A stretch of 64,000 nucleotides of DNA from a virus. This document shows, piece after piece, positions 26,104 through 52,823 of this stretch. The notes under the pieces were generated by a model that was given only the letters and a program-made list of their open reading frames with translations, was not told the origin of the DNA and did not search any database. The translations under genes were made by a program, and so were the position numbers. Location: positions 1-64,000 of IMG/VR virus record IMGVR_UViG_3300033153_009650; one strand, 5' to 3'. Positions within the stretch are counted from its first letter, which is position 1. Each line of letters opens with the position of its first letter.

Positions 26104-26457
26104 TTATTTTTGTCTTCCTAAATTATAATATGGCTGTGTTAGAAAAATTTTCTTTCCAATAGATTTAGCATATCTTTTTTCTTTTTCAATGCCCCTTGAT
26201 TGAGGCCAATATGGCAAATTAGCAATTACCATCTCATCACACCAATCGATCCATAATCTATTGAGCTTTTCCCAATAATTAGAGCTGATTGGTAAGGATC
26301 CATATATTGCTATTGGATGAGAATGTGCAATAGGGCAAAATACAGCATTTCCTTCGTTTATCAATTTTGCGGCTATTTTGCAGACCTCTTTAAATCTCTG
26401 TTCCCGTATGTTTGGATTTCTATGCGAATATGGACTTGCCAAATATATTTTTTTCAT
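26104..26457 (-). CDS. DUF1937 protein, nucleoside deoxyribosyltransferase-like (117 aa)
   Basis: YLASPYSHRNPNIREQRF, VFCPIAHSHPIA and LWIDWCDEMVI match DUF1937, a Rossmann-like group related to nucleoside 2-deoxyribosyltransferases. The ATG shares a base with the upstream stop. It may act on nucleotide pools; substrate unknown. Confidence 0.75.
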   Translation of the reverse strand: MKKIYLASPYSHRNPNIREQRFKEVCKIAAKLINEGNAVFCPIAHSHPIAIYGSLPISSNYWEKLNRLWIDWCDEMVIANLPYWPQSRGIEKEKRYAKSIGKKIFLTQPYYNLGRQK

Positions 26458-28760
26458 TATTTTGCCTGCGCGATATTAAATCCCCTATTTCTTTTTCCAA
26501 CTGATTTCAAATTTCTTATTGCCACGTCATAATATCCTTTCTTGAGCTCGCATCCCTTGAATTTCCGTTCAAGTTTTAAAGCAACATATCCCGTTGAACC
26601 AATTCCTGCGAACGGGTCATATATAATATCCCCTGGATTGCTCCATAATTTGATCGCCCTTTCGATTACCCCAAGTTGCAAAGGGGCCAAATGTTTTTCG
26701 TCTTTGTTATTCTTTGCATCTCGATAATTTCTCAAAACATCTGTTTGTCTTATACCACCAGGATATTGAGGAGTTTGTCTATACCAAACAGGAGCAGCCC
26801 ACTCAATCCACTCTTCTTGAGTAATCCATCCTTGTTCTTTATTTTTTCCTGCTTTTATAGGATTAATATTTTCTCCAGGCTTTCTGAATTGTAATAAGTA
26901 ATCCGCTAAGGCACAATGCAAATGAGAAGCGTCAGATCTCAATGTTTTAAAAAGCAAGCCCCTATCTTTAGTCCTGATAGCTGTTACTTGAGGATTCTTA
27001 TCGATGCAAACTTCTCCATAATAAATCCAACCTTCTTTTTCCATCATTTGTATCACTTTACCTCGGAAATCCTTAATACCAATATACCCATCTCTACTTT
27101 GAAAAGCAACTCCTTGGCATAGATGGATACAACAATGACGACCAGGCATAGTAATTCTCAAGAGATGATCTTTATTAATGACAAATCGGAATTGCTCAAT
27201 TAACTCCTCAATAGATTTTGTATTACCAATATCATGTTGGCTATTGGTATATACATACATTCCAGGAAACGGAGGACTGAAAACAGATAGCCCAATCGAA
27301 TCCGTCTTAATATTTTTCATTGTCAACACACTATCTCCCAATTGTAATTCCCACCCTTCCCTTTTCTTGATTTTTTCCATGTAAATCATTTCCTCTCTTT
27401 TTGTTCCAAGCTGTCCTGACAGATTCATATTTAAGATTAACTCATTAAACATTTTTGTAGAATCTTTTTCCTTTCGTTTGATATTCTTTACCACTCCCCC
27501 TTCAATTTCCGTAGTAATAACATAAACATTTACAGGATGCTTTTGACCAAATCGCCAGCATCTCCTCATCGCTTGATAAAACTTTTCATAAGAATCGCTT
27601 AATCCGACAAATGCCATATTGTGACAAGATTGAAAATTCATTCCAAATCCAGCAATAGAAGGCTTTGTCACAAGACATTTGATTTTTCCATCCTGAAAAT
27701 CAAGTAGCGACTGTTCCTTATGTTGTGATGAATCAGATCCTTTAACTTCTACCGAGTTATTAATCTGCTTGGAAAGTAAATTTGACTCTTTATTAAGATC
27801 GCACCAAATTAACCATGTTTCATTTGATTTGTTTATTATTTCAGAACATAGTTCGATTCTACTTTCAATACTATTTTGTCTTGCAATTTGTCTGTCCCTC
27901 AAACCTCTTGCCTCAGTCGCAAATAATTCTCCTGGTTTGATATCTCTGTTTGTTGCAGGAATTGTTTTTTGAATTATCCTTAATTCCGGCAAGATAAATC
28001 CATCGTTGTCATAGCCTAAATCAGAAGGAGAACGCAGGGCTACAGACCACGATGCAAGCCACTTCCAAAATGCTTGTTTTGCATGGCCTTTGAGAACCCA
28101 TTTTTGGACCATATCCTGAGCCCGATTGGTAAAGAATAACGATTTAATCTCTTTCTCTGTCATTATCCCAAGGAACTCGGCATGATTGATTATTTCAAGC
28201 AGATCATTTGGCGCTGGGGTAGCCGTACAAGCGAATCGAAAAGGAACTTGAGAACCAAACTCTGTAATTGCCTTTCTGAATTTGCCATCAAATCCCTTCA
28301 AAATTGAACTCTCGTCCAATACAATCCCTCCGAGATTATCAGAATTGAAATTCTTCAACATTTCATAGTTAGTAATATTGATTCCCTTTTTAATATTAGC
28401 TTGCCTACGACAAATATTCACAGGGACATGGAATTTTATTCCTTCTCTTTGTGTCTGCTTTGACACGGCAAGAGGAGCGAATATCAAGACTGGAAGTTTG
28501 GTTTTTTTCACAACATGGTTTGCCCAATCCAACTGGATAGGGGTCTTGCCCAATCCACAATCCGCAAAACAGGCAGAGCGGCCTCTCATCAATGCCCATT
28601 TTGTGATATCTTTTTGAAAGTTAAACAACATCGGATTCAACTTATTGGAAGAAAGTCGAAATCCCGAGTTGATATCCTCTATAGTTTTCTGTTCGAGAAA
28701 TTTTTGGTATTTAAGATCTTCCATTTTTTGATTTTTTGATTGGTTAGTAAAATTCTCCAA
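26457..28760 (-). CDS. SNF2-type helicase fused to DNA methyltransferase (767 aa)
   Basis: Residues 1-440 are a superfamily 2 helicase: Walker A DCGLGKT, LDESS, TATPAP, and motif VI QAMRRCWRFGQ. Residues about 480-760 are an N4/N6-type DNA methyltransferase: motif IV SPPF in SVFSPPFPG and motif I DPFAGIGSTG, in permuted (beta-class) order. Helicase and methylase together would modify phage DNA processively. The first codon is a TTG at 28760; ATG at 28724 is an alternative, and neither has a clear ribosome binding site. Confidence 0.8.
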   Translation of the reverse strand: MENFTNQSKNQKMEDLKYQKFLEQKTIEDINSGFRLSSNKLNPMLFNFQKDITKWALMRGRSACFADCGLGKTPIQLDWANHVVKKTKLPVLIFAPLAVSKQTQREGIKFHVPVNICRRQANIKKGINITNYEMLKNFNSDNLGGIVLDESSILKGFDGKFRKAITEFGSQVPFRFACTATPAPNDLLEIINHAEFLGIMTEKEIKSLFFTNRAQDMVQKWVLKGHAKQAFWKWLASWSVALRSPSDLGYDNDGFILPELRIIQKTIPATNRDIKPGELFATEARGLRDRQIARQNSIESRIELCSEIINKSNETWLIWCDLNKESNLLSKQINNSVEVKGSDSSQHKEQSLLDFQDGKIKCLVTKPSIAGFGMNFQSCHNMAFVGLSDSYEKFYQAMRRCWRFGQKHPVNVYVITTEIEGGVVKNIKRKEKDSTKMFNELILNMNLSGQLGTKREEMIYMEKIKKREGWELQLGDSVLTMKNIKTDSIGLSVFSPPFPGMYVYTNSQHDIGNTKSIEELIEQFRFVINKDHLLRITMPGRHCCIHLCQGVAFQSRDGYIGIKDFRGKVIQMMEKEGWIYYGEVCIDKNPQVTAIRTKDRGLLFKTLRSDASHLHCALADYLLQFRKPGENINPIKAGKNKEQGWITQEEWIEWAAPVWYRQTPQYPGGIRQTDVLRNYRDAKNNKDEKHLAPLQLGVIERAIKLWSNPGDIIYDPFAGIGSTGYVALKLERKFKGCELKKGYYDVAIRNLKSVGKRNRGFNIAQAK

Positions 28761-29980: not shown

Positions 29981-30129
29981 TTTTTAGTCATGTATTTCTT
30001 AATTTCCTGATTAATATTTTCCCTTTTACTTAGGAAATAATATGAAAGTAATCTGTTATAAGCTTTAAGTTTATTTAATGCTTCCTCTTGGCTTTTTTCT
30101 TCCAACCAGGTAGCAAGAATAATTTTCAT
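29977..30129 (-). CDS. MKI-family micro-ORF (50 aa)
   Basis: ATG overlaps the TGA of the DpdA-like gene. MKIILATWLEEKSQEE … NRLLSYYFLSKRE has the shared pattern of the small family found beside modification genes. No known function. Confidence 0.45.
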   Translation of the reverse strand: MKIILATWLEEKSQEEALNKLKAYNRLLSYYFLSKRENINQEIKKYMTKK

Positions 30130-31073
30130 ATCTCAAAACCTCCTGATGGTCTTTTTTTGAAGGGCCAAGGCCATTCTGGCATTGATTTTTCCAAGTCCAA
30201 AAAATAAATAATATTTAATTCATCTCTTTGTTTATAATCATTACTAAGTCCTGGTTCAATCACTGTTTCAACTATTTTGTCCTTTGACCAGCCAAAAGTG
30301 ACTCTTCCATCCTTGAGCCCATGAATTCCTCTTTGGGCATCAGCATCTTGTTTACCAAACCATCTTTCTCCATCCTTGAGTTTATAATTATTATCTACCT
30401 TTTTCAAATCTGACTTTCCTAATTTATATCCTTTTTCCTCGAAGTATTGAAAAATGATGTCCTGCTGTTTAGGAGAAAAAGTATTAAAATGTTTATTTAC
30501 TTCTTTTTGGGAAGGAGACTTACTTGATATAGCTACCTTCCAGGAATCCTCATCATAAATCCATTCTCCTTGTTTATATTTTGGAATGTAAATTGATCCT
30601 GTTCGACTTGTCATTACCCAGGACGTACTGTCTACACTGTACCAGGGATATCTAAGCATAAGTTTGAGAGAAGTTAAACCAAAGCCATGTATTTTATGAG
30701 TAGGTAAATAAGAATTGCTTTCAGGACATATTATAGAAAAGATGTAATCGTAAAATCTTGCCCTGACTGGAGTAGCTACTAAAGCGGCTCCTCCTAAACC
30801 AAAATATTCATATTCCAAAACTTTTCGTAAATATTTTTCATCTTCTTTAAAGTGATAAACTGGTAAGGGAGAGAGTCCTTGTCTTTCCATCTCTTTTTGA
30901 TTTTCCCAAGTTTTTTCGGGACTGTTTAAATCATCAAGATTAACATACACTTCTAAATATTGTTTATGCTCATAAATAAAATCTATATACTTTTGCAAAG
31001 AAATTTTTGCTCCTTTACTCCATGCACTGTAAGCCCCAGAGTCAAGAAATAAGTTTATTTTTTCCTTTCTCAT
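30126..31073 (-). CDS. dpdA: DpdA-like 7-deazaguanine DNA transglycosylase (315 aa)
   Basis: ATG behind GAGGAGACCATT. Related to tRNA-guanine transglycosylases: LDSGAYSAW gives the first active-site Asp, FGLGGAAL and KIHGFGLTS correspond to the base-binding GG and LG motifs, and WYSVDSTSW gives the nucleophile Asp. DpdA enzymes swap guanine in DNA for a 7-deazaguanine. A full preQ0 pathway (FolE, QueD, QueE, QueC) lies in the same minus-strand run, which argues for DNA rather than tRNA as target. The exact base cannot be read from sequence. Confidence 0.8.
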   Translation of the reverse strand: MRKEKINLFLDSGAYSAWSKGAKISLQKYIDFIYEHKQYLEVYVNLDDLNSPEKTWENQKEMERQGLSPLPVYHFKEDEKYLRKVLEYEYFGLGGAALVATPVRARFYDYIFSIICPESNSYLPTHKIHGFGLTSLKLMLRYPWYSVDSTSWVMTSRTGSIYIPKYKQGEWIYDEDSWKVAISSKSPSQKEVNKHFNTFSPKQQDIIFQYFEEKGYKLGKSDLKKVDNNYKLKDGERWFGKQDADAQRGIHGLKDGRVTFGWSKDKIVETVIEPGLSNDYKQRDELNIIYFLDLEKSMPEWPWPFKKRPSGGFEI

Positions 31074-31087
31074 AATGGTCTCCTCAA

Positions 31088-31765
31088 CTATATTTTTTCA
31101 AGAATGACATATATCCAATTTTGGGGTGCTTTGAAATATCTGATAATTTTAAAACCAAAGTCCTTTGTTAAAATTTCAAAGGCTTTTCTTGTTAACATAC
31201 AAGTATGCTCAAGATGATAAAACATTGGTATATGGGCATCAAATGAATCCCCATCGTTTGTGCTTATAAAGAATCTACCACCAAGTGTCAACATCTTATA
31301 AATAAGTCCAAAGGTTTCTCTAATGTCATTTATGTGCTCAACAACATCTACTAAGAAGACATTGAGATAAAAAAGATTCCTTCTATAACTCTCAATTGAA
31401 CCTATGTATTTACTAATATTACAATCTGAATATTCCATTCTCAATAAATCTTTTATTTCCGAGTAAAAGACCCTATATTTGGAATCTACTTTTCTTCTAA
31501 CTAAGTAAGTAAAATCACCGTCCGCTGCTCCAAACTCTATTGAGTCCCCATTAAGAATATAATCCTCGAACCAAGCATATCTGGCTCTTTGATGTAATTT
31601 TAATCCCTCATCCCCTTTATACCAATAGTCAGATTCATGATAAAACTCTATATTTACATTAGTAGATCGAAAGGTACAACCACAGTTAGTACATTTCAAA
31701 ATACCTTGTGGATAGATTAAATTTTTACATGATCCAGAACCACATATCTTACATCTTATATTCAT
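31088..31765 (-). CDS. SAM methyltransferase with N-terminal zinc ribbon (225 aa)
   Basis: CKICGSGSC and CTNCGC form a zinc ribbon, then IEFGAADGDF supplies the SAM-binding Gly-rich loop and VDVVEHI the acidic post-motif. Class I methyltransferase of the Methyltransf_23 sort. Its place between the HAD protein and DpdA suggests it alters the modified base or its precursor; target unproved. Confidence 0.7.
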   Translation of the reverse strand: MNIRCKICGSGSCKNLIYPQGILKCTNCGCTFRSTNVNIEFYHESDYWYKGDEGLKLHQRARYAWFEDYILNGDSIEFGAADGDFTYLVRRKVDSKYRVFYSEIKDLLRMEYSDCNISKYIGSIESYRRNLFYLNVFLVDVVEHINDIRETFGLIYKMLTLGGRFFISTNDGDSFDAHIPMFYHLEHTCMLTRKAFEILTKDFGFKIIRYFKAPQNWIYVILEKI

Positions 31766-32397
31766 ATCTTCTCCAGGCTTTTACAATAAGATAAGGTTTT
31801 TTCACAATTACAAATTAAATCATTATCCACAAAACCACTTAGTTTTATTTTTCCATCAAATTCAGGTAAATTACAACAATATTTTTCATGTATTCTAATC
31901 AAGGTTATATAAGTTAGTAATGGAATATTACAAAGGCACTTTCCACATTTAGGACAAGGCATTATTCCACATTTAGGACAATCCATTACAGAAATATCAA
32001 TTTGAAAACCACAGAAGAAACAAGGATGTTTTTCGTCCGGAGAAATAAATCCATGTTTAAATCTCCAACATGAGTTATGAAAGTTGTAACTTAAATATTT
32101 TTCAAGATCTTCAGGAATTGTTGGAATGGCTTTATCATCAATCATTACATTACATACTGGTTTTCTTCCATACATTATATTAGTGTATTTTACATTGTAT
32201 TTTACTAACCATTCCTCAGTCATTTGTTTATCTTCAACATATCGGGCAGTAAAGAGAGTAATCATGTGTCCTAAGTCCACAAGTCGATTAATCTTACCTA
32301 TTGCCTTAAAGTTAGGGGTCCTGTAAGGATAATAATCTTTTCCCCATCCTTCTGACTCTAAAGTTAATACTCCATCAATGTCAACTAAGATAAGCAT
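31762..32397 (-). CDS. HAD phosphatase with Cys-rich C-terminal domain (211 aa)
   Basis: VDIDGVL (nucleophile), FTARY and MIDDKA are HAD motifs I, II and III/IV. The C-terminal 100 residues contain CFFCG, CPKCG, CPKCGKCLC and a CC pair, a double zinc ribbon. Probably hydrolyses a phosphate on a small molecule or nucleotide; the unusual zinc part may bind nucleic acid. Overlaps both neighbours. Confidence 0.65.
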   Translation of the reverse strand: MLILVDIDGVLTLESEGWGKDYYPYRTPNFKAIGKINRLVDLGHMITLFTARYVEDKQMTEEWLVKYNVKYTNIMYGRKPVCNVMIDDKAIPTIPEDLEKYLSYNFHNSCWRFKHGFISPDEKHPCFFCGFQIDISVMDCPKCGIMPCPKCGKCLCNIPLLTYITLIRIHEKYCCNLPEFDGKIKLSGFVDNDLICNCEKTLSYCKSLEKI

Positions 32398-32977
32398 CTA
32401 TTTCCCACCATTTTTCACCTCTTGGATTTTCCATCCAAATATAAACATGATTATTTTTAATTTTATTAACACGTCTATAGTCCACTGAATTTAACTTTTT
32501 ATTAGAACATCCCCATTTGTGATTTGCGAGATTATTGATATCTTTATAATCGTTATTTTTTTTTGGTTTTGGAAATCCTACAATAATTACTTTACCATAT
32601 AATTTCAATTTATCTAAACATTTGAGAGCATCTTTCTCTCTCAAATGTTCAAAAATTTGCTGACCTAAAATAATATCAAACTTCTGGTTAAAACAACGCT
32701 TCCTTAGAATATAATCTACAACATCTATTTTATAAATCTCATTATAAATCTCATTATTTAGTTGGTCAAATCTTTTGAAGCTTCCAAGATCAATACCAAC
32801 CAACTGTATGTTCCAACCATAGACCATTCTCATTAGACTACCATATAATCCTTTGCCACATCCAATATCTAAAAAAGAAAAAGCTTTATAATTTAAACCG
32901 ATCATATAGTCTATTAATCCAAATAATTCACTCACTTGTTTTATATTACTAACGCCGTGTCCAAAAGGTCTTCCCAT
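32381..32977 (-). CDS. SAM-dependent methyltransferase (198 aa)
   Basis: FLDIGCGKGLYG is a clear SAM-binding motif I, LVGIDLG motif II and ILGQQIFEHL the post-II acidic segment. Lacks known DNA-methylase DPPY. Second methyltransferase of the modification cluster. Confidence 0.7.
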   Translation of the reverse strand: MGRPFGHGVSNIKQVSELFGLIDYMIGLNYKAFSFLDIGCGKGLYGSLMRMVYGWNIQLVGIDLGSFKRFDQLNNEIYNEIYKIDVVDYILRKRCFNQKFDIILGQQIFEHLREKDALKCLDKLKLYGKVIIVGFPKPKKNNDYKDINNLANHKWGCSNKKLNSVDYRRVNKIKNNHVYIWMENPRGEKWWEIDAYLS

Positions 32978-32989
32978 GTGTTCTCCTTT

Positions 32990-33643
32990 TTAAGTGAGAT
33001 AGGCATCCACTTCTCTTATAATTGCTACATTCCTCTCTGGTAAGTATTGTCCTTTTTTAGCCGCTTGATAATAATTTAACATTAGTATTCGATCTACAAA
33101 TTCAATATCAACTCCATGACTTCGGAGGACAGTCCATTTTCTAAAACAAGAAGGACAAGCTCCACAATAATTACTTACTTCAGTTGATGAGTAACAAGAA
33201 ATGGTATCGAGTAATAATTCCGGCTTACCAACATTCTTTATAAACCACTTGACAACTTCCGCTTTCGACATTAGCCAGAACGGACTGAATACTAAAATAC
33301 CTGGGTTCATAATAGATAGTAGCCGACTAAATTCTTTAAAGATAAATTCATTTTTGTCTGATACGACATCATCTTTAACTCCAGCAATACAAATCTCTTG
33401 ATCATACTTCACTGCAAGCATTGCTAAATACAAGTTTCTAAAAGGGATGTACGCTTTTGAACCGACCTGTCTACTGTTAAGATTAAGTGTATTGTCGATA
33501 ATTGTATCAGGTATCAGTTTTTTAATTACCCGTAACTCTCTATGAGTATAGGGAGTTCCTAAATCGAAATAAACAGTTTGAGGTTTATTTAAATAATGAT
33601 AAGCAACAAAGGAGTCTATACCACCAGAAAACAGTAAAATCAT
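32990..33643 (-). CDS. queC: QueC, 7-cyano-7-deazaguanine synthase (217 aa)
   Basis: The PP-loop LFSGGIDSF activates the substrate carboxylate, and SCYSSTEVSNYCGACPSC has the QueC zinc Cys set. It converts CDG to preQ0 using ATP and ammonia. Slightly short for QueC but both motifs are complete. Good ribosome binding site (AAGGAGATAAA). Confidence 0.85.
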   Translation of the reverse strand: MILLFSGGIDSFVAYHYLNKPQTVYFDLGTPYTHRELRVIKKLIPDTIIDNTLNLNSRQVGSKAYIPFRNLYLAMLAVKYDQEICIAGVKDDVVSDKNEFIFKEFSRLLSIMNPGILVFSPFWLMSKAEVVKWFIKNVGKPELLLDTISCYSSTEVSNYCGACPSCFRKWTVLRSHGVDIEFVDRILMLNYYQAAKKGQYLPERNVAIIREVDAYLT

Positions 33644-33652
33644 TTTATCTCC

Positions 33653-33994
33653 TTATTTTTGTTTTTCATTACAAAATTTTTTGTATCCAACTACAGAAAA
33701 AATATTAATTCTATCTTGCATATGTTCTTTAGAATTTTTTCCTACTCGTTCCTCGGAATGCCAGTAATCACCGAAAACTTCTATAATAAGTTTTCTTCCA
33801 TTTACATTTACAAAGTCTGGACATTTGCCTCGAATGATAAGACTTCCATCTCCGGCATATTTCCACTCGTTTGGAAAGTTTTCTTTATATTGGGCTATGG
33901 AAATATTATGTTTGAATAATAGATGTTTGTTAGAAATTACTTTGTATTTTTTCTTACATAATTGACAAATTACATAATCTTTATTTTCTATCAC
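33653..33994 (-). CDS. zinc-finger plus Vsr/DUF559-like endonuclease, probably truncated (113 aa)
   Basis: N-terminal CQLCKKKYKVISNKHLLFKH is a MucR/Ros-like zinc motif often found on phage endonucleases. Then CPDFVN … KLIIEVFGDYWH is the PD-(D/E)XK core of very-short-patch/DUF559 nucleases. The protein stops soon after DRINIFSVVGYKKF, where relatives continue with another helix-strand. Likely a mobile or repair endonuclease, perhaps inactive at the end. Confidence 0.6.
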   Translation of the reverse strand: MIENKDYVICQLCKKKYKVISNKHLLFKHNISIAQYKENFPNEWKYAGDGSLIIRGKCPDFVNVNGRKLIIEVFGDYWHSEERVGKNSKEHMQDRINIFSVVGYKKFCNEKQK

Positions 33995-34997
33995 TTGAAT
34001 AATCTCCTATATGTACATAACTATCGAATGGTAGTTTCCCAGCCTTGATATAATGGGCATCAATATGTGTCCCCCATAAACAGCCAGGACAATTTTCCTT
34101 TACAATAGGTTTCCATATGTCTTGAAATTCTTGCCAGCGATTGTACAACTCAGTTACACAAATTTTTTTACCCGATCCAAGATCAGGTTGAAAGTCATCG
34201 CAAGGGTAAACAAAGCCATCACAATCTACAGTAACCCATGAAGGAAATTCCTTATAATTAGCACAATTCCATGAGTAGTCTGTTAGTAGATTAGGATTGT
34301 CCCTTAATAAGTCAATGAACAGCCTACTTGTATGACATAATTCTCCCTGTTCCTTTAATTCGTATAACTCATTTAAGAAGGAGATAAACTGAACTATGTC
34401 TTCATTACGGAAAAGTAGTTCTTGCATTTCTGGATAATTTTTGCATTTGCTTCCAGGCTGTCCCCTATCCTGATGTATAAGGTCAAAAAAACTCCAGATT
34501 TTTTTCTGACTCATTTTTTTCACTGAATCAATAAATAGTTTATAGTTATTTCTTGTCAATGTTGTAATAGCCGCAACATCCCGAACTCGCCCTAACTGGA
34601 GAAATTGAGTTAAGGCGGGAACGGCGAGATCGTTTTTGAGAGAACTTGATTTGTCTATTCCTTCAATATCAAAACTCATTGATAAAGATTTTGCCCCAGA
34701 CAAATAAAGTTGTTCTACCTTGTTCCAAAAATTAGGTACCATTCCTGAAGTTATAACAGTTGTATGAATTCCTAAAGATTCGGTATATCCTACAACTTCT
34801 GGTAATTTTTCAAAATCGTATAAAGGCTCAGCCCCATAGAATGCAATGAATCCACATCCTATTTTTTTCAAATTATCAATTCCTTTTAACCAACTTTCAC
34901 AAGATAGGGAATTACTTTTTCCAGTAACCATCCCACAATAACTACATCTAAGAGGACAGATTCTGGTCCATAAAATTTCAGCTTTTACTATTTCCAT
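33981..34997 (-). CDS. radical SAM protein with SPASM-like C-terminus
   Basis: ATG at 34997 shares its A with the FolE stop; a GTG 12 nt upstream is possible. CPLRCSYCGM is the CxxxCxxC that binds a [4Fe-4S] cluster, and GAEPLYDFE the GGE-like motif. C-terminal Cys (CANYK, VDCDGFVYPCDD, CPGCLWG) suggest extra clusters. Radical SAM enzymes of this type modify peptides or small molecules. Lying between FolE and QueC it may tailor a 7-deazaguanine, but its substrate is unknown. Confidence 0.7.
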   Translation of the reverse strand: MEIVKAEILWTRICPLRCSYCGMVTGKSNSLSCESWLKGIDNLKKIGCGFIAFYGAEPLYDFEKLPEVVGYTESLGIHTTVITSGMVPNFWNKVEQLYLSGAKSLSMSFDIEGIDKSSSLKNDLAVPALTQFLQLGRVRDVAAITTLTRNNYKLFIDSVKKMSQKKIWSFFDLIHQDRGQPGSKCKNYPEMQELLFRNEDIVQFISFLNELYELKEQGELCHTSRLFIDLLRDNPNLLTDYSWNCANYKEFPSWVTVDCDGFVYPCDDFQPDLGSGKKICVTELYNRWQEFQDIWKPIVKENCPGCLWGTHIDAHYIKAGKLPFDSYVHIGDYSSDRK

Positions 34998-35560
34998 TAT
35001 CTGGTCCACAATGACATTAATTCACTTCTGGCAGCGAAACCTTTGTTAGAATCCTCCAAAAATATTCCTTTCAAAGAGCTGTATCCCATAATAGAATTTT
35101 GTTTTTCAACTCCTCTACAAGCAATACAAAGGTGTTTTGCCTCGGTTAGACACGCTGCTCCAAGAGGATTTAAATATTTCATTAAAGTATTAGTAACTTG
35201 TTCACCAATTCTTTCCTGTATTTGAAGTCGATGAGAAAAAATATCTAAAAGACGGGCCATCTTAGATACTCCAATAACAGGTCCATTAGGAATGTAAGCA
35301 ATAAAAGCATTACCATAAAATGGAAGTATATGATGTTCGCACATACTATAAAATTCGATATCCTTCAAATAAATAAGTCCTCCGAATTGTTCCTCTTCAT
35401 CTTCAAAGGTCTTGATTACATCTTCTGGACTTTCACTATATCCTGAGAATAAATGTTTAAATGATTCAATAACTCTCTCAGGGGTTTCAATCAGTCCTTC
35501 TCTACTTGGATCGTCTCCTGTTAACTTTAGGAGTTCGGTTACTATTTGTTTTTCTTTCAT
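34997..35560 (-). CDS. folE: FolE, GTP cyclohydrolase I (187 aa)
   Basis: DPSREGLIETPERV, MCEHHILPF (zinc and catalytic His) and HLCIACRGVEK are diagnostic. It makes 7,8-dihydroneopterin triphosphate, the first step to preQ0. Good ribosome binding site (AAGGAGCCTTT). Confidence 0.92.
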   Translation of the reverse strand: MKEKQIVTELLKLTGDDPSREGLIETPERVIESFKHLFSGYSESPEDVIKTFEDEEEQFGGLIYLKDIEFYSMCEHHILPFYGNAFIAYIPNGPVIGVSKMARLLDIFSHRLQIQERIGEQVTNTLMKYLNPLGAACLTEAKHLCIACRGVEKQNSIMGYSSLKGIFLEDSNKGFAARSELMSLWTR

Positions 35561-35573
35561 AAAGGCTCCTTAA

Positions 35574-35632
35574 AACAAAAAGGTTCTGGTGGGAATATTC
35601 TCAAGTTCTTCTCTGAAGATTTTTCCCACCAG
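35574..35632 (-). terminator. hairpin terminator upstream of folE
   Basis: CTGGTGGGAA (35586-35595) pairs with TTCCCACCAG (35623-35632); on the minus strand the stem is followed by AACCTTTTTGTTTT. It probably ends or attenuates transcription from the 163-aa gene. Confidence 0.6.
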
Positions 35633-35663
35633 TCCTTATATCTTTAAATTTTTCCTTTCCTCT

Positions 35664-36155
35664 TTATGAGACCACTTTGAAAACGCCCTTGTTCTCTTTG
35701 ACTTCAAGTCCTTTATCCTTTTTGAGATGTTGGAGATGACCTTTAACCCTGCCTTCTTTTACTCCTAATTTCTCAGCGGCTTTCTCAATGGTAGTTCCTT
35801 TGAAAAAGAGTTCATCCAATGCGGCTGACTGAGAGCCAAGCTTATGGCCATATCTGCTTTTCTCTTTGACAGATTTTGCTTTCTTTTCTTTCGGAGGTTT
35901 TGATTCCGATGGTTTTGATTCTGGAGGTTTTGGCATTTCAAATCCCAGGACCTTTAAAGTAGCAATTGATTCTTTTGTCAACTTGTCACCAGGCTCCAGC
36001 ATTTTTGTGACCTTTTTGATCTCATTTATCAATTTATCTTTCGTGGTTTTCTGCGCTGTTGGTAAGGCTGGTTCAAGATCCATAAGGTTGTTCAGGTCCT
36101 TTGCCAATTCAATCAATTCCTTTACTGTGGGTTCATTATTTTTCTTTTTCGCCAT
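35664..36155 (-). CDS. basic protein with C-terminal helix-turn-helix (163 aa)
   Basis: Helical N-terminus, a Pro/Lys/Ser linker (PPESKPSESKPPKEKK) and a C-terminal winged-helix-like part (FFKGTTIEKAAEKLGVKEGR, then VKGHLQHL). Strong ribosome binding site (AAGGAGAAAAGAAA). Likely DNA-binding, maybe a regulator or nucleoid-type protein. Confidence 0.55.
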   Translation of the reverse strand: MAKKKNNEPTVKELIELAKDLNNLMDLEPALPTAQKTTKDKLINEIKKVTKMLEPGDKLTKESIATLKVLGFEMPKPPESKPSESKPPKEKKAKSVKEKSRYGHKLGSQSAALDELFFKGTTIEKAAEKLGVKEGRVKGHLQHLKKDKGLEVKENKGVFKVVS

Positions 36156-36201
36156 TTTCTTTTCTCCTTTCCTTTTTTTTGATTAAATGGTTAATGACTG
36201 T

Positions 36202-36639
36202 CTATCTCTCTTTCCTTATAAGATTCCCTCCTTTAAGAATACTATGGATTTCAGGATTCCCAGACAGGTTGTCTCCAAAACGGTTAGTAAATCCAAATCC
36301 ATGTAATGTCCCTAAACCTTCATTTATCAAGCACGATTCATATATCTTTCGTAGAAGATCTGGTTGATTTTTTGGAAAATATTTTTTTACAGAATTTACT
36401 TGTTTAAGGAATTTTGTTGTTTTTGTTTTTGCTGATCCTTTTACAGATTTGATTATTGGATGATAAAAATTAACAAGCATATCCATTATACTCAAGTATA
36501 AACTTTTCAAGGAAGGATAGGGCCAGTAGTTAAGATTTGGCATACTTAACAAAATATCCGACATTATCTCGTTAGGATTGGCGTCATAAGGATAAGATCT
36601 TTTCTTGCCATTGATAATTATTAAAATAGATTCTTTCAC
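36202..36639 (-). CDS. 145-aa hypothetical protein, GTG start
   Basis: GTG behind AGGAGGTGAAAGA, downstream of a conserved promoter. Basic helical protein with FGFTNRFGDNLSGNPEI near the end. No family recognised. Confidence 0.5.
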   Translation of the reverse strand: MKESILIIINGKKRSYPYDANPNEIMSDILLSMPNLNYWPYPSLKSLYLSIMDMLVNFYHPIIKSVKGSAKTKTTKFLKQVNSVKKYFPKNQPDLLRKIYESCLINEGLGTLHGFGFTNRFGDNLSGNPEIHSILKGGNLIRKER

Positions 36640-36654
36640 TCTTTCACCTCCTTT

Positions 36655-36699
36655 CTAAGTATTATATATTATTTTCAGATGTTTTTAATATTTTTTTTG
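36655..36699 (-). promoter_or_regulatory. conserved AT-rich promoter, copy 3
   Basis: AATATTAAAAACATC spacer, TATAAT and ACTTAGAAAGGAGGTG on the minus strand, just after the queE stop. Confidence 0.65.
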
Positions 36700-36701
36700 T
36701 T

Positions 36702-37355
36702 TTAAATCCCTCTTTTTTCAGAATCCCAAATGATTTTATGTAGTTGCACATTCACAGTCACGTCCCAAAACTTATCCTTTTTAATCATTGAGATTAAATC
36801 TGCCGGACTAAACTTTCCAAATACTGTGCTCAATGCCACATTAGCTTGACTCCCCAAATCTCTTAATCTGGAAACTGTTTCCTTTGCCAGATAGTATTCT
36901 TCTGGGCTTTGAAGAACCAACTTAATCCAATCACAAGAAGTCAAACGAGTAAAGTTTTTTGTAATCATCTTTTCCCAACACCATAACTTGTAATCAACAA
37001 TCCAACCAAAATTTTCGTCATATAAATCTTGGGGAAGCTCAATACTTCCATTTGTTTCTACTGTGACTTTATGCCCTTTATACAGAAGCTCTTTAATTAA
37101 AGGAATTAATTCTCTCACCTGCAATAAGGGCTCTCCTCCAGTAATCGTAATTTTTTTACAACCAATAGTCTTAACAAGATTAAAAATAGCGGCTTGTTCA
37201 TATATTTCCCCAGCATTTGCTTTCTGAGCATACTTGGTATCACAGTAAGGACATTTTAAATTGCATCCGGCAAAACGAATAAATGTTGACATTGTTCCTT
37301 GATGAAAAGTGCTAACTTCTCCGTCGATACTGGTAAAGATTTCGTTTATAATCAT
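36702..37355 (-). CDS. queE: QueE, 7-carboxy-7-deazaguanine synthase (217 aa)
   Basis: ATG chosen behind TTGGAAAGGAGAAAGAAA. GCNLKCPYCDTKYA is the radical SAM CxxxCxxC, TITGGEPLLQ the SAM-binding loop, and TFHQGTMSTFIRFAG the QueE-specific N-terminus. Converts CPH4 to CDG in preQ0 synthesis. Confidence 0.88.
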   Translation of the reverse strand: MIINEIFTSIDGEVSTFHQGTMSTFIRFAGCNLKCPYCDTKYAQKANAGEIYEQAAIFNLVKTIGCKKITITGGEPLLQVRELIPLIKELLYKGHKVTVETNGSIELPQDLYDENFGWIVDYKLWCWEKMITKNFTRLTSCDWIKLVLQSPEEYYLAKETVSRLRDLGSQANVALSTVFGKFSPADLISMIKKDKFWDVTVNVQLHKIIWDSEKRGI

Positions 37356-37430
37356 TTTCTTTCTCCTTTCCAAAATAACGTTTCATTATAAGTTTCCATG
37401 TTATTTTTCTGAATGGAATTGATCCTACAG

Positions 37431-37484
37431 CTATATCATAATATGAGCAGTATGCTTATCTCCGGCAGCTAAGTAAATTTTCAT
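37431..37484 (-). CDS. possible MKI-family micro-ORF (17 aa, perhaps frameshifted)
   Basis: ATG shares its A with the queD stop (TAATG). It reads MKIYLAAGDKHTAHIMI then stops; an adjacent frame stays open with GSIPFRKITWKLIMKR through the queE ribosome binding site. It has the MKIYxA opening of the other micro-ORFs. Confidence 0.3.
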   Translation of the reverse strand: MKIYLAAGDKHTAHIMI

Positions 37485-37891
37485 TAAGCCGTCACCTCTG
37501 CGTATGATGTTGGGGTTTCATAGAGACGAACAAAAGATATCTTTCCCTCTATCCTCATCTCCTCCCACCTATTCTGTAAACGACTCAGTATCCAAATAAC
37601 CATATTCTCCGCTGTTGGCATTTCCCAAGGGAAGTTAATCCCAAGTTGCCCGGGTTCTGATTTTAAATCATTGAGCAAAACATGATCAACATGATCAAGA
37701 ATCTCCTGTTTTACTATGATTTTTAAATGGGTAAAATCAATCACCATTCCCGAGTCATAGTCTATCTTTCCTTTAACTCCGACTAAAAGTCGGTATCCAT
37801 GGCCGTGAAGACTTTTACATTTTCCCTTATATCCCGGCAGACGATGAGCCGCATCAAAAGTAAATTCCTTAATCACTGTTACCTGATTCAT
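37484..37891 (-). CDS. queD: QueD, 6-carboxytetrahydropterin synthase (135 aa)
   Basis: Start chosen behind GAAAGGAGAGGAAAA. FDAAHRL and CKSLHGHGY give the zinc His set and the catalytic Cys, DHVDHVLLND and PTAENMV follow as in QueD. The presence of that Cys favours QueD over pyruvoyl-tetrahydropterin synthase. The frame continues 38 codons upstream to an ATG at 38005; that helical extension is probably a separate remnant. Confidence 0.87.
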   Translation of the reverse strand: MNQVTVIKEFTFDAAHRLPGYKGKCKSLHGHGYRLLVGVKGKIDYDSGMVIDFTHLKIIVKQEILDHVDHVLLNDLKSEPGQLGINFPWEMPTAENMVIWILSRLQNRWEEMRIEGKISFVRLYETPTSYAEVTA

Positions 37892-37997
37892 TTTTCCTCT
37901 CCTTTCGTTTATAGTTTTTAGCCATTTATATAATTCATCTCCGATAGCTTCTCTTAAGTTTTTTTCTTGATGTTTTGCTATATTTTTTATTCTTGAT

Positions 37998-38582
37998 CTA
38001 TACATCTCTCACTCTCTGGATTATGGCAATTTTGCCTTCTTCAAACTGAAATCCATTGCAGATTTCCTTAAGAATTATAGGAGTCTGTTTGTTTCTGCTA
38101 AATCCAATATTAACCCATCGACCGTTAAATGAAGTCAAGGCATTAATAATATATTTTGGATTAATCTTTATTTCAATCTTTTGTTTGATAGATTTATCTG
38201 TATCAATTTTTCCTTCCATTTTTCCTATGTCAAGATTTAAAACTTTTATTTTAAGACTACGTCCAAAAATAAGACTCATAGCGATATATCTTTTGTCTGT
38301 CAATATTTTGGCATATCTTGCCAGATGTAATAATTCAATTCGATTAATTCTTATTATATGATCAAAATCTTTCTGTAATATATTGCTAATATCTGGATAT
38401 TTCAGATTTTCACTGATGGGAGATAAAATTATAATATTCTCTTTCTTTTCTAAACTATATAACCCTTCCTCTCTCTGTTGACCAAAATAACCTATATGAA
38501 GACTATATCCATCACTGGCAAACAAATTTCCTTGTTTCACATATAAATAACCAAGAGATTTAAATATTACAGTTTCTTTCAT
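37998..38582 (-). CDS. second sliding-clamp-like protein (194 aa, N-terminus likely longer)
   Basis: LYVKQGNLFASDGYSLHIG resembles the beta-clamp SDG strand, and INPKYIINALTSFNG with QTPIILK the clamp C-terminal NPKYL…P motif. It has fewer domains than the clamp at 28843. The frame is open upstream of the ATG at 38582 with clamp-like sequence (RIDRKRNRSDFDTVTF) back to an A9 run at 38654-38662 next to an ATG that overlaps the helicase stop; one extra A would join them. Confidence 0.6.
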   Translation of the reverse strand: MKETVIFKSLGYLYVKQGNLFASDGYSLHIGYFGQQREEGLYSLEKKENIIILSPISENLKYPDISNILQKDFDHIIRINRIELLHLARYAKILTDKRYIAMSLIFGRSLKIKVLNLDIGKMEGKIDTDKSIKQKIEIKINPKYIINALTSFNGRWVNIGFSRNKQTPIILKEICNGFQFEEGKIAIIQRVRDV

Positions 38583-47614: not shown

Positions 47615-48130
47615 TCATATTTTTTCAATATCATTTCTATATCTGCAAAATTCGTTGTAGTATGGCCGTAATACTCTCAGCGCTTTCTGCGCTTTTTTAG
47701 ATACATTTTTTGTGTCTAATCGGCCTATATGAGCTATTAATTGCCAAACAAATCGAGTATTGACTTTCATTCCAAAACTACCACACCACAAGGGCAAACA
47801 GCTAAAATCAAGGTCGGCTCCCCGAAGGTCAGCTCCCTGAAGGTGAGCTCCCTGAAGTTGGGCTCCCCGAAGGTCAGCTCCCTGAAGGTGAGCTCTCCAA
47901 AGGTCGGATCCCCGAAGGTCAGCTCTCCGAAGGTCGGCTTCCTGAAGGTCGGTTCCCTGAAGTTGGGTTCTCCAAAGGTCGGATCCCCGAAGGTCAGCTC
48001 TCCGAAGGTCGGCTTCCTGAAGGTCGGCTCTCCGAAGGTCGGCGTCCTGAAGTTGGGCTCCCTGAAGGTCGGCTTCAAAAGTTGTTTCAATTTCCAACAT
48101 AACCTGTCCAAAACGATTTTTAATTTTCAT
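47615..48130 (-). CDS. pentapeptide-repeat protein (171 aa)
   Basis: Residues 18-105 are tandem A(D/N)LxG-type pentapeptides (ADLRGSDLWRAHLQGADLRG), which fold as a right-handed beta helix. Such proteins can mimic DNA and inhibit gyrase or other DNA enzymes. The DNA (47815-48070) is a chain of near-identical 15-bp units, so copy number is likely variable. C-terminus is a separate basic domain. ATG behind GGAAGAGAGAG. Confidence 0.75.
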   Translation of the reverse strand: MKIKNRFGQVMLEIETTFEADLQGAQLQDADLRRADLQEADLRRADLRGSDLWRTQLQGTDLQEADLRRADLRGSDLWRAHLQGADLRGAQLQGAHLQGADLRGADLDFSCLPLWCGSFGMKVNTRFVWQLIAHIGRLDTKNVSKKAQKALRVLRPYYNEFCRYRNDIEKI

Positions 48131-48156: not shown

Positions 48157-48441
48157 TTAACCTCTGTTAATCCGCCGTCTCAGTGTATCCACAGCTTCCT
48201 CGGCAACAGCATGTTTTCCTTTCGCAGAGAGCGTGTAAAACTCGCCCAGCGAGTCAGCATAGGCTGCCAAATTGTGCCGATTGTCGATGATAATTGTCAC
48301 GTCCATAATGCCCTGTGCATGCATTGTTGGCCCTGAGTAACGCAGTAAATTGTCAATTTGTTTACCGGTCAGATTCGCTGTTTTGACTATATTAGTGACC
48401 CATTTGTTTTGTTTTTCCGAACCATTAAATTTAATTTCCAT
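48157..48441 (-). CDS. 94-aa hypothetical protein
   Basis: ATG behind ACAGGAGATAGGAAA. First gene of a GC-richer block (48150-49500). Contains a YADSLGEFYTLSAKGKHAVA segment. No family recognised. Confidence 0.5.
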   Translation of the reverse strand: MEIKFNGSEKQNKWVTNIVKTANLTGKQIDNLLRYSGPTMHAQGIMDVTIIIDNRHNLAAYADSLGEFYTLSAKGKHAVAEEAVDTLRRRINRG

Positions 48442-48470
48442 TTTCCTATCTCCTGTGTTTGGGGTTAGTG

Positions 48471-48971
48471 TTAGTCATCCCAAAAATGACCAAAAAAGCC
48501 ATTTCCGTTGATTTCCCAGTGGGGGTTCCCCCATGCATCCTGCATAAGAGTCACGTCCCCGTTGACCAGATCGGCAACCTGATCGGCGGCGCGGTCGAGA
48601 GCGCCGTAAATGGAGCTACTATTTTTCGTCCAAGTGCGCTCCATTGGTTTTGGTTCGGCATCCAAGCGGACACAAAGCCATCTGATCTCAAAATCATCTG
48701 GGAGTGTAGTTGCTCCCTCTGGGAGTCGTCCACCAACTAATTGACCGACATACAATATGTCAGTGTCAGTCAACGTGATGGACTGCCTGTTTTGGGCAAT
48801 CTCAATGCCTAATAGATCGGAAAACACCCGTGCAGTATCGGCATGACCGACAATCGACACAGGTTTCGACAGTCTTTTGGCGATGGATGGCAGGTTGACA
48901 GGTTTCACCCTGATTGTCCCGCCGTCCGGTGTCATTGACAGTGCAAAAGCGTTTGAAATATAGATTGTCAT
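48471..48971 (-). CDS. DUF1874 / AcrIII-1-like ring nuclease (166 aa)
   Basis: Start chosen at the ATG 8 nt after AAAGGAGA; an ATG two codons upstream is too close. TIYISNAFALSM, VSIVGHADTARVFSDLLGIE, QNRQSITL and QLVGGRLPEG match the DUF1874 family of STIV B116 and the viral anti-CRISPR AcrIII-1. The His of VGHADTA corresponds to the catalytic His that cleaves cyclic tetra-adenylate, silencing type III CRISPR signalling. A 75-residue extension follows the usual domain. Confidence 0.82.
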   Translation of the reverse strand: MTIYISNAFALSMTPDGGTIRVKPVNLPSIAKRLSKPVSIVGHADTARVFSDLLGIEIAQNRQSITLTDTDILYVGQLVGGRLPEGATTLPDDFEIRWLCVRLDAEPKPMERTWTKNSSSIYGALDRAADQVADLVNGDVTLMQDAWGNPHWEINGNGFFGHFWDD

Positions 48972-49010
48972 TTTCATTCTCCTTTCGCGCCCTATCTCTC
49001 AGGCGCATGG

Positions 49011-49184
49011 TTAATAATCGTCCTCTCGTCCGTAGCAGGTTTTGCAGATCGAATCAAACACATTCCCTACTGCACCACAATTAGGGCAGACCCACCTATT
49101 ACCAGGGCAGTCTGTCCACCTACATTCTCCGATGTTCGGGTCAATTTTTCGGCCGCAGTCGGAACAAATCAATTCCTCTGTCAT
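49011..49184 (-). CDS. 57-aa double zinc-ribbon protein
   Basis: ATG behind AGAAGGAGGAGAAAAAA, inside the end of the acetyltransferase-like gene. CSDCGRK, CPNCGA and CKTCYG plus C-x-D-C give two zinc sites. Function unknown. Confidence 0.55.
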   Translation of the reverse strand: MTEELICSDCGRKIDPNIGECRWTDCPGNRWVCPNCGAVGNVFDSICKTCYGREDDY

Positions 49185-49503
49185 TTTTTTCTCCTCCTTC
49201 TCTTAGGTCAAGAGTCATGGTACCATGGCCCTGGTCAATAAATCCCACACGACTATACACTCGTCTGCGTGTAGGCCCCCTGCCGTCCTCGCATGTGGGC
49301 TCGCACCAGAGGAAAGTCACCTTCCGCGAGGCGCACCACGTGAGGATACACTCCCACACGTGGCGGAGCTCGTTGAGATTACCGCGCCCGCGCCCTGACA
49401 CAGCAGCAGAGCCACTGGTCATAGGTTTAGACAGCTCCACCTCACCCGTGGCATCAACATATGCCTCGATGTGGGTGGTCCGCAATCTTAACACTTTTTT
49501 CAC
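49141..49503 (-). CDS. GNAT-like acetyltransferase (120 aa), GTG start
   Basis: GTG behind AAAGGAGAAGAGAAA. The C-terminal RRRVYSRVGFIDQGHGTMTL resembles the GNAT signature (R-x-x-Y-x-x-x-GF). The acetyl-CoA loop is not clear. Markedly GC-rich compared with flanking genes. Substrate unknown; modification of a host protein or tRNA is possible. Confidence 0.5.
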   Translation of the reverse strand: MKKVLRLRTTHIEAYVDATGEVELSKPMTSGSAAVSGRGRGNLNELRHVWECILTWCASRKVTFLWCEPTCEDGRGPTRRRVYSRVGFIDQGHGTMTLDLREGGEKNDRGIDLFRLRPKN

Positions 49504-49587
49504 TTTCTCTTCTCCTTTTGTTTGGGGTTATCGTTTAACCTCTCAGTATACCCGCTAGTCTCGATTGATTCCCTTATTATCAATGGA

Positions 49588-52058: not shown

Positions 52059-52823
52059 ATGGAATATAGAAGAAGAAAAAATGGTAATGGGAAAAATAAT
52101 AAAAGGAATTCAAGTACAGGTCTTCAAGTAGGTACAATGGCTACCCCTGGAAGGACTGTCCGCAATGGGGGCCTTACTGAAATGCAAGAATTATTTTGTC
52201 GCGAGTTTATTGTTGATATGAATATTTCCCAAGCAGGAGTAAGAGCTGGTTATTCTGAAAAGGTAAAAGGAGTTGCTGGATGGCAAGTTTTCCAATTAAA
52301 AAAGGTTAGGCGGCGTATTAATGAATTGATGAAAGATCGATTAGATAAACTTAATAAACGGTTTAAAGATTTAGATCTGACCGCTGAAAGGCTTCTTTTA
52401 GAATTAGCATCCATTTCCTTTTTTAATGTACAGGATCTTTATGAGGATGATGGAACATTGAAGCCTATTAGCGAATGGACAGAAAGACAAGCGGCTGCAA
52501 TAGCAAGTATTAAAACAACAGAATTATTTGATGGTCAGGGAGAAGATAGGCGTCAAATAGGAGTATTAAAAGAAATAAAAACCCATCCTAAAGTAGAAGC
52601 CATTAAACTTGGAATGAAATATTTTGGATTGCTTCATGAATATCTTCATGTTAAAGAGGAGAAAATCAAAACTCACAGAATAGAAATTGATGTAAAATCA
52701 GAGCAGATCAGATCTTTAAATTTAGGGAGGGAAGAACTTGAACAGTTTGCCTCTTTCCTTAGTCAGCTCAACCCAGGGACAACAATACCTGGAATTGGAA
52801 GCAGTGAACAAGATTCTGGCTGA
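52059..52823 (+). CDS. terS: terminase small subunit (254 aa)
   Basis: GGLTEMQELFCREFIVDMN, SQAGVRAGYSEK and ELASISFFNVQDLYEDDG are typical of Terminase_2 small subunits. The N-terminal helix-turn-helix recognises packaging DNA. Its last 86 bases overlap the large subunit. Confidence 0.8.
   Translation: MEYRRRKNGNGKNNKRNSSTGLQVGTMATPGRTVRNGGLTEMQELFCREFIVDMNISQAGVRAGYSEKVKGVAGWQVFQLKKVRRRINELMKDRLDKLNKRFKDLDLTAERLLLELASISFFNVQDLYEDDGTLKPISEWTERQAAAIASIKTTELFDGQGEDRRQIGVLKEIKTHPKVEAIKLGMKYFGLLHEYLHVKEEKIKTHRIEIDVKSEQIRSLNLGREELEQFASFLSQLNPGTTIPGIGSSEQDSG

Follow-up and report, generated by a model that had tools for sequence, protein, structure and literature searches.

As a rule, viral ring nucleases consist of one minimal domain of ~100 residues. 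AcrIII-1 outnumbered every other ring nuclease in a survey of phage genomes (PMC12409355). Ring nucleases of the DUF1874 family are said to employ a conserved histidine as general acid, and the AcrIII-1 of Thermoanaerobacterium phage THSA-485A (Tsac_2833, I3VYU1) abolishes immunity mediated by cyclic tetra-adenylate (cA4) in experiments (PMC7371418). SIRV1 AcrIII-1 (gp29) is inactivated by H47A (PMC7213978). A cellular DUF1874 fusion is also already known: in Csx1-Crn2 of Marinitoga piezophila, the DUF1874 ring nuclease domain lies inside a multidomain protein (PMC7293037).

We analysed a gene in a 64,000-nucleotide stretch of viral DNA, hereafter the window, which is part of an 89,129-base virus record (IMGVR_UViG_3300033153_009650). 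Its product is probably a viral ring nuclease of the AcrIII-1 type, with a small acidic domain fused to its C-terminus. Like THSA-485A AcrIII-1, which was the top viral structure library match to the predicted model (target TM 0.91, rmsd 1.2 A), it has a phage-encoded DUF1874 core with the same site residues and the same predicted fold, but the THSA-485A protein is 102 aa long, lacks the extension and has Ser where the window protein has Ala10. SIRV1 gp29 (PDB 2x4i, 6scf) shares the DUF1874 core and the catalytic His47, which aligns with His43 of the window protein, but it is a sequence-distant protein of 114 aa from an archaeal virus, without such an extension. Csx1-Crn2 is cellular and joins a Csx1 ribonuclease to a C-terminal DUF1874 domain, whereas in the window protein this domain is N-terminal and is followed by a small domain. 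In a short, partial literature search, no description of the C-terminal domain was found.

A predicted viral ring nuclease of the DUF1874 family

The ORF spans 48471-48977 on the minus strand and encodes 168 aa when counted from the first ATG. Translation likely starts at the second ATG, at 48971, because the ribosome-binding site AGGAG (48979..48983, minus strand) is 7 nt ahead of it but only 1 nt ahead of the first ATG, and because a related contig, L207 (IMGVR_UViG_3300033148_002604; 94% identical there), conserves the AGGAG and the second ATG but lacks the first. The coding sequence would then be 48471..48971 on the minus strand, with 166 aa and a stop codon. Residue numbers below refer to the 166-aa protein, and those of the 168-aa form (P0001) are higher by 2.

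A Pfam profile search detected PF08960 (STIV B116-like, DUF1874) at 38.7 bits, with a cut-off of 26, as the sole Pfam domain in the 168 aa, and the core also matched PHROG 5063 (E=3.8e-15); NCBIfam gave no match to the protein. The closest named phage homologue was THSA-485A AcrIII-1, with 42.5% identity to the core, and the solved relatives found by sequence match were AFV3-109, SIRV1 protein 114 and, weakly, STIV B116. The two profile matches, the ends of the homologues and the AlphaFold model together placed the core at residues 1-104 (48660..48971, minus strand). The core model had a pLDDT of 93-97, exceeding 93 in nearly all blocks, and it adopted the DUF1874 fold expected of AcrIII-1 and Crn2. 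Viral origin separates AcrIII-1 from cellular Crn2, and the gene lies in a virus record with a terminase gene at 52738. The preliminary description had assigned the protein to the DUF1874/AcrIII-1 ring nuclease family, and this assignment is well supported by the profile matches, the invariant residues described below and the fold match to the experimentally tested THSA-485A protein.

Two other ring nuclease types were considered and rejected. PADLOC reported a Csx16 match of 32.6 bits, which was limited to residues 26-91 of the 168-aa form; the DUF1874 matches in Pfam and PHROG begin at residues 3-5 and score higher. A Csx16 cross-match is expected, given the similarity between Csx16 models and a viral Crn2 homologue (PMC12409355). 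A Csx1-Crn2 fusion was dismissed because no Csx1 CARF/HEPN was present, PF08960 being the only domain in the 168 aa and the extension having neither a Pfam nor a PHROG match.

Active-site residues and the replacement of a conserved serine

Alignment of 89 sequences showed that Gly42-His43, Arg62, Gln77, Gly80, Arg82 and Gly86 are invariant, and residue 85 is Glu in 85 of them. The catalytic His43 (codon 48843..48845, minus strand) lies in the motif GHADTA and pairs with His47 of SIRV1 gp29 in a sequence alignment to the solved relatives. The site residues Arg62, Gln77, Arg82 and Glu85 are also present and align with Arg66, Gln81, Arg85 and Glu88 of SIRV1 gp29. The core had been described beforehand as intact, with its catalytic His in VGHADTA, and the loss of key residues on alignment had been named as a finding that would speak against a ring nuclease. 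The histidine and the four residues above were all retained, but the conserved Ser of the site was replaced by Ala10 (codon 48942..48944, minus strand). All 86 other sequences covering this column have Ser, which makes Ala unique among the 87.

A serine of the ring nuclease site was changed to Tyr in Csx1-Crn2, and cA4 binding and cleavage were strongly reduced (PMC7293037); we infer that this serine is the one at position 10. Ala10 may reduce activity; the core is probably active, though not certainly at the full rate. A cA4 sponge or slow nuclease, in which loss of the Ser weakens cleavage and the protein mainly holds cA4, perhaps with help from the extension, would fit the uniqueness of Ala10 and the effect of the bulky change in Csx1-Crn2. 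We regard it as improbable: the catalytic His and the other site residues are retained, and a protein that only binds would not need the His; Tyr is far bulkier than Ala; and AFV3-109 likewise has no Ser at the aligned place. Since all sampled relatives retain this Ser, its absence here is a natural test of how much of the site is required.

By analogy with tested members of the family, the protein very probably functions as a ring nuclease. Its DUF1874 core would dimerise, and the dimer would bind the cA4 made by Cas10 of type III CRISPR. Family membership further predicts that His43 would act as the general acid in the cleavage of cA4 to linear di-adenylate. Loss of cA4 would then switch off the host effectors and relieve type III CRISPR immunity. 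It is reasonable to expect from the presence of the gene, as the preliminary description did, that the hosts have type III CRISPR.

A rare C-terminal extension with one known relative

The preliminary description had counted 75 residues after the core. The core continues past RLPEGATTLP through its last beta-strand, EIRWLCVRL, where the homologues stop, near residue 104. Because this strand belongs to the core and the homologues end there, the extension is shorter, ~62 residues (105-166; 48474..48659, minus strand).

Long tails are rare in this family. Among 111 distinct C-termini taken from the fetched loci, with the window's own omitted, the median tail was 2 residues and five tails had at least 30. 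The long tails were mostly unrelated to the extension: that of L035 (2956-3591, 88 residues) is coiled-coil-like, that of L075 (2995-3411, 36 residues) contains a hydrophobic segment, that of L106 (2884-3405) has 53 residues, and the 127-residue tail of L084 is of low complexity and may be a frameshift. Gain of a tail may thus be recurrent among DUF1874 homologues. Ten DUF1874 matches from two sampled phyla had open frames of 108-126 aa, which leave no room for an extension of this kind. The tblastn matches of L047, L086, L089 and L090 past residue 106 were discarded, as they cross stop codons into unrelated sequence.

The preliminary description had proposed a search for the extension in other DUF1874 proteins, and this search yielded one case, L009 (IMGVR_UViG_3300028294_000263). 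In blastp, the L009 protein aligned with residues 5-151 of the 168-aa form at 39% identity, reaching well into the extension, where about one third of the residues are identical. When the extension alone was compared with the L009 tail, the score was 54, and the best among 20,000 shuffles was 46. The L009 extension stops early in its own frame and continues in the neighbouring frame to FWDE, which corresponds to FWDD in the window. Of 20,000 shuffles, 62 matched the window as well as this shifted-frame end did, and the match supports a homologous extension at full length. The frame change is probably a frameshift, either real or derived from sequencing. Overall, the two proteins are 39-41% identical and both have a DUF1874 core with the homologous extension, but L009 keeps the Ser. 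A TerS-like ORF is found near the L009 gene in the opposite orientation, and likewise in the window, a placement that amounts to loose synteny.

No further relatives of the extension were found in viral contigs, searched with the extension alone or with a two-row alignment, or in phages. Among 398 genomes of one phylum there were also none, apart from two weak fragments (E 0.002-0.008). A weak match of L070 to the extension (E=0.09) looks like chance.

Several observations show that the extension goes beyond chance: long tails are rare, the intergenic linker at the end of the ORF is found again in a related contig, the coding score of the extension's reading frame is the highest among the six frames, and L009 carries a homologue. 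Its rarity, the homology to L009 and the predicted ability to fold alone support the view that it is a real added module.

Predicted fold, charge and possible role of the extension

AlphaFold modelling of the extension alone, with two sequences, gave a long helix followed by three strands (pLDDT 87.0, pTM 0.72), and the same order was seen in the full-length model. Since the five extension models ranged in pLDDT from 63 to 87, an independent fold is suggestive only. The extension sequence had no match in Pfam, PHROG or PDB, and its fold had no match in PDB or BFVD with E below 0.8. A resemblance to the helix-strand order of dsRNA-binding domains was dropped, as the fold matches were at chance level only and the domain is acidic.

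The extension has a pI of 4.45 and a net charge of -6, and the core has a pI of 5.7. The acidity of the extension argues against nucleic acid binding. Some database records label homologues 'DNA binding protein', in line with a core that is not a ring nuclease but serves some other purpose, for example by binding DNA. This is very improbable, given the conserved site residues, the close relationship to the tested THSA-485A ring nuclease and the acidity of both parts of the protein.

We think it somewhat probable that the extension is functional, and any specific role is less so. The preliminary description raised a second activity and an oligomer contact, and either is possible. No recognisable catalytic motif was seen in the extension, so an accessory contact, our best guess, is favoured over a second enzyme. 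The 62-residue acidic domain might make this contact with a partner from the host or the phage, or inside the oligomer. A bolder reading sees in the extension a functional module new to viral ring nucleases. It might, for instance, dock the enzyme on a type III complex or effector, or complete an altered cA4 site that has lost its conserved Ser, and the protein would then do more than cleave free cA4; we consider this unlikely.

Alternatively, the protein may be a working AcrIII-1 ring nuclease whose tail is a neutral, dispensable appendage that arose through a fusion or a lost stop codon. Most homologues are tail-free, some others have unrelated tails, the L009 tail is interrupted in frame as assembled, leaving the lone relative not intact, and no known domain is matched, all of which agree with such a tail. 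However, the tail is common to two proteins whose cores are ~40% identical, and a neutral tail would hardly persist at about one third identity; its predicted fold is also confident. A dispensable tail is therefore possible but rather unlikely. Should the extension instead be a functional domain, its presence in two diverged phage proteins would mean that phages add modules to the anti-CRISPR AcrIII-1. Comparison of the core with the full-length protein, in cA4 cleavage, oligomeric state and partners, provides a small testable target.

Possible exchange of the gene as a cassette

The GC content at ~47.9-49.7 kb is 0.41-0.56, compared with 0.36 overall, and the core and the extension both lie within this stretch. 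In L207, the two upstream genes are present with 94% DNA identity, which breaks off at the start of the ring nuclease ORF; this upstream junction (48966..49020, minus strand) is common to both sequences, and a different gene lies beyond it in L207. On the other side, the linker past the stop codon, AACCCCAAACACAGGAGATAGGAAAATG, is found again in L207 after another gene, as is the longer form that includes the start of the next gene, TAACCCCAAACACAGGAGATAGGAAAATG (48439..48467, minus strand). Variants of AACCCCAAACACAGGAGATAGGAAAATG occur at other places in L207 and, in the window, upstream of the gene starting at 49503. The DNA at 48.4-49.6 kb had no match in phages or plasmids.

In L207, other genes adjoin both the upstream junction and the downstream linker, so the ring nuclease gene can be read as a swappable cassette. 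The arrangement suggests gene swapping at conserved ribosome-binding-site linkers, with the core and the extension moving as one unit. The whole ORF would thus be exchanged as a cassette at these linkers, in a part of the phage genome that is GC-rich and accessory.

More broadly, a repeated intergenic linker, AACCCCAAAC..AGGAG..AAAATG, is present between different genes in these two related phages (window 48435-49530; L207 3058-4538), and it is likely a point of accessory-gene exchange. The genes past the upstream junction in L207 (2880-3398 and 4533-5006) are two similar copies, one of which has a run of N between its parts. A pentapeptide-repeat protein is encoded at 47615-48130 (minus strand), with one gene between it and the ring nuclease gene, and its coding DNA contains 15-base direct repeats.

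Other genes in the window

A 7-deazaguanine gene set occupies 30126-38005 on the minus strand. It comprises a queuine tRNA-ribosyltransferase-like protein (30126-31073, PHROG 887), QueC (32990), GTP cyclohydrolase I (34997), QueE (36702) and QueD (37484), all on the minus strand, and it hints that the phage DNA is modified, which would be a second counter-defence. Another ORF, of 767 aa (26457-28760, minus strand), combines a helicase C-terminal domain with an N6/N4 DNA methylase domain.
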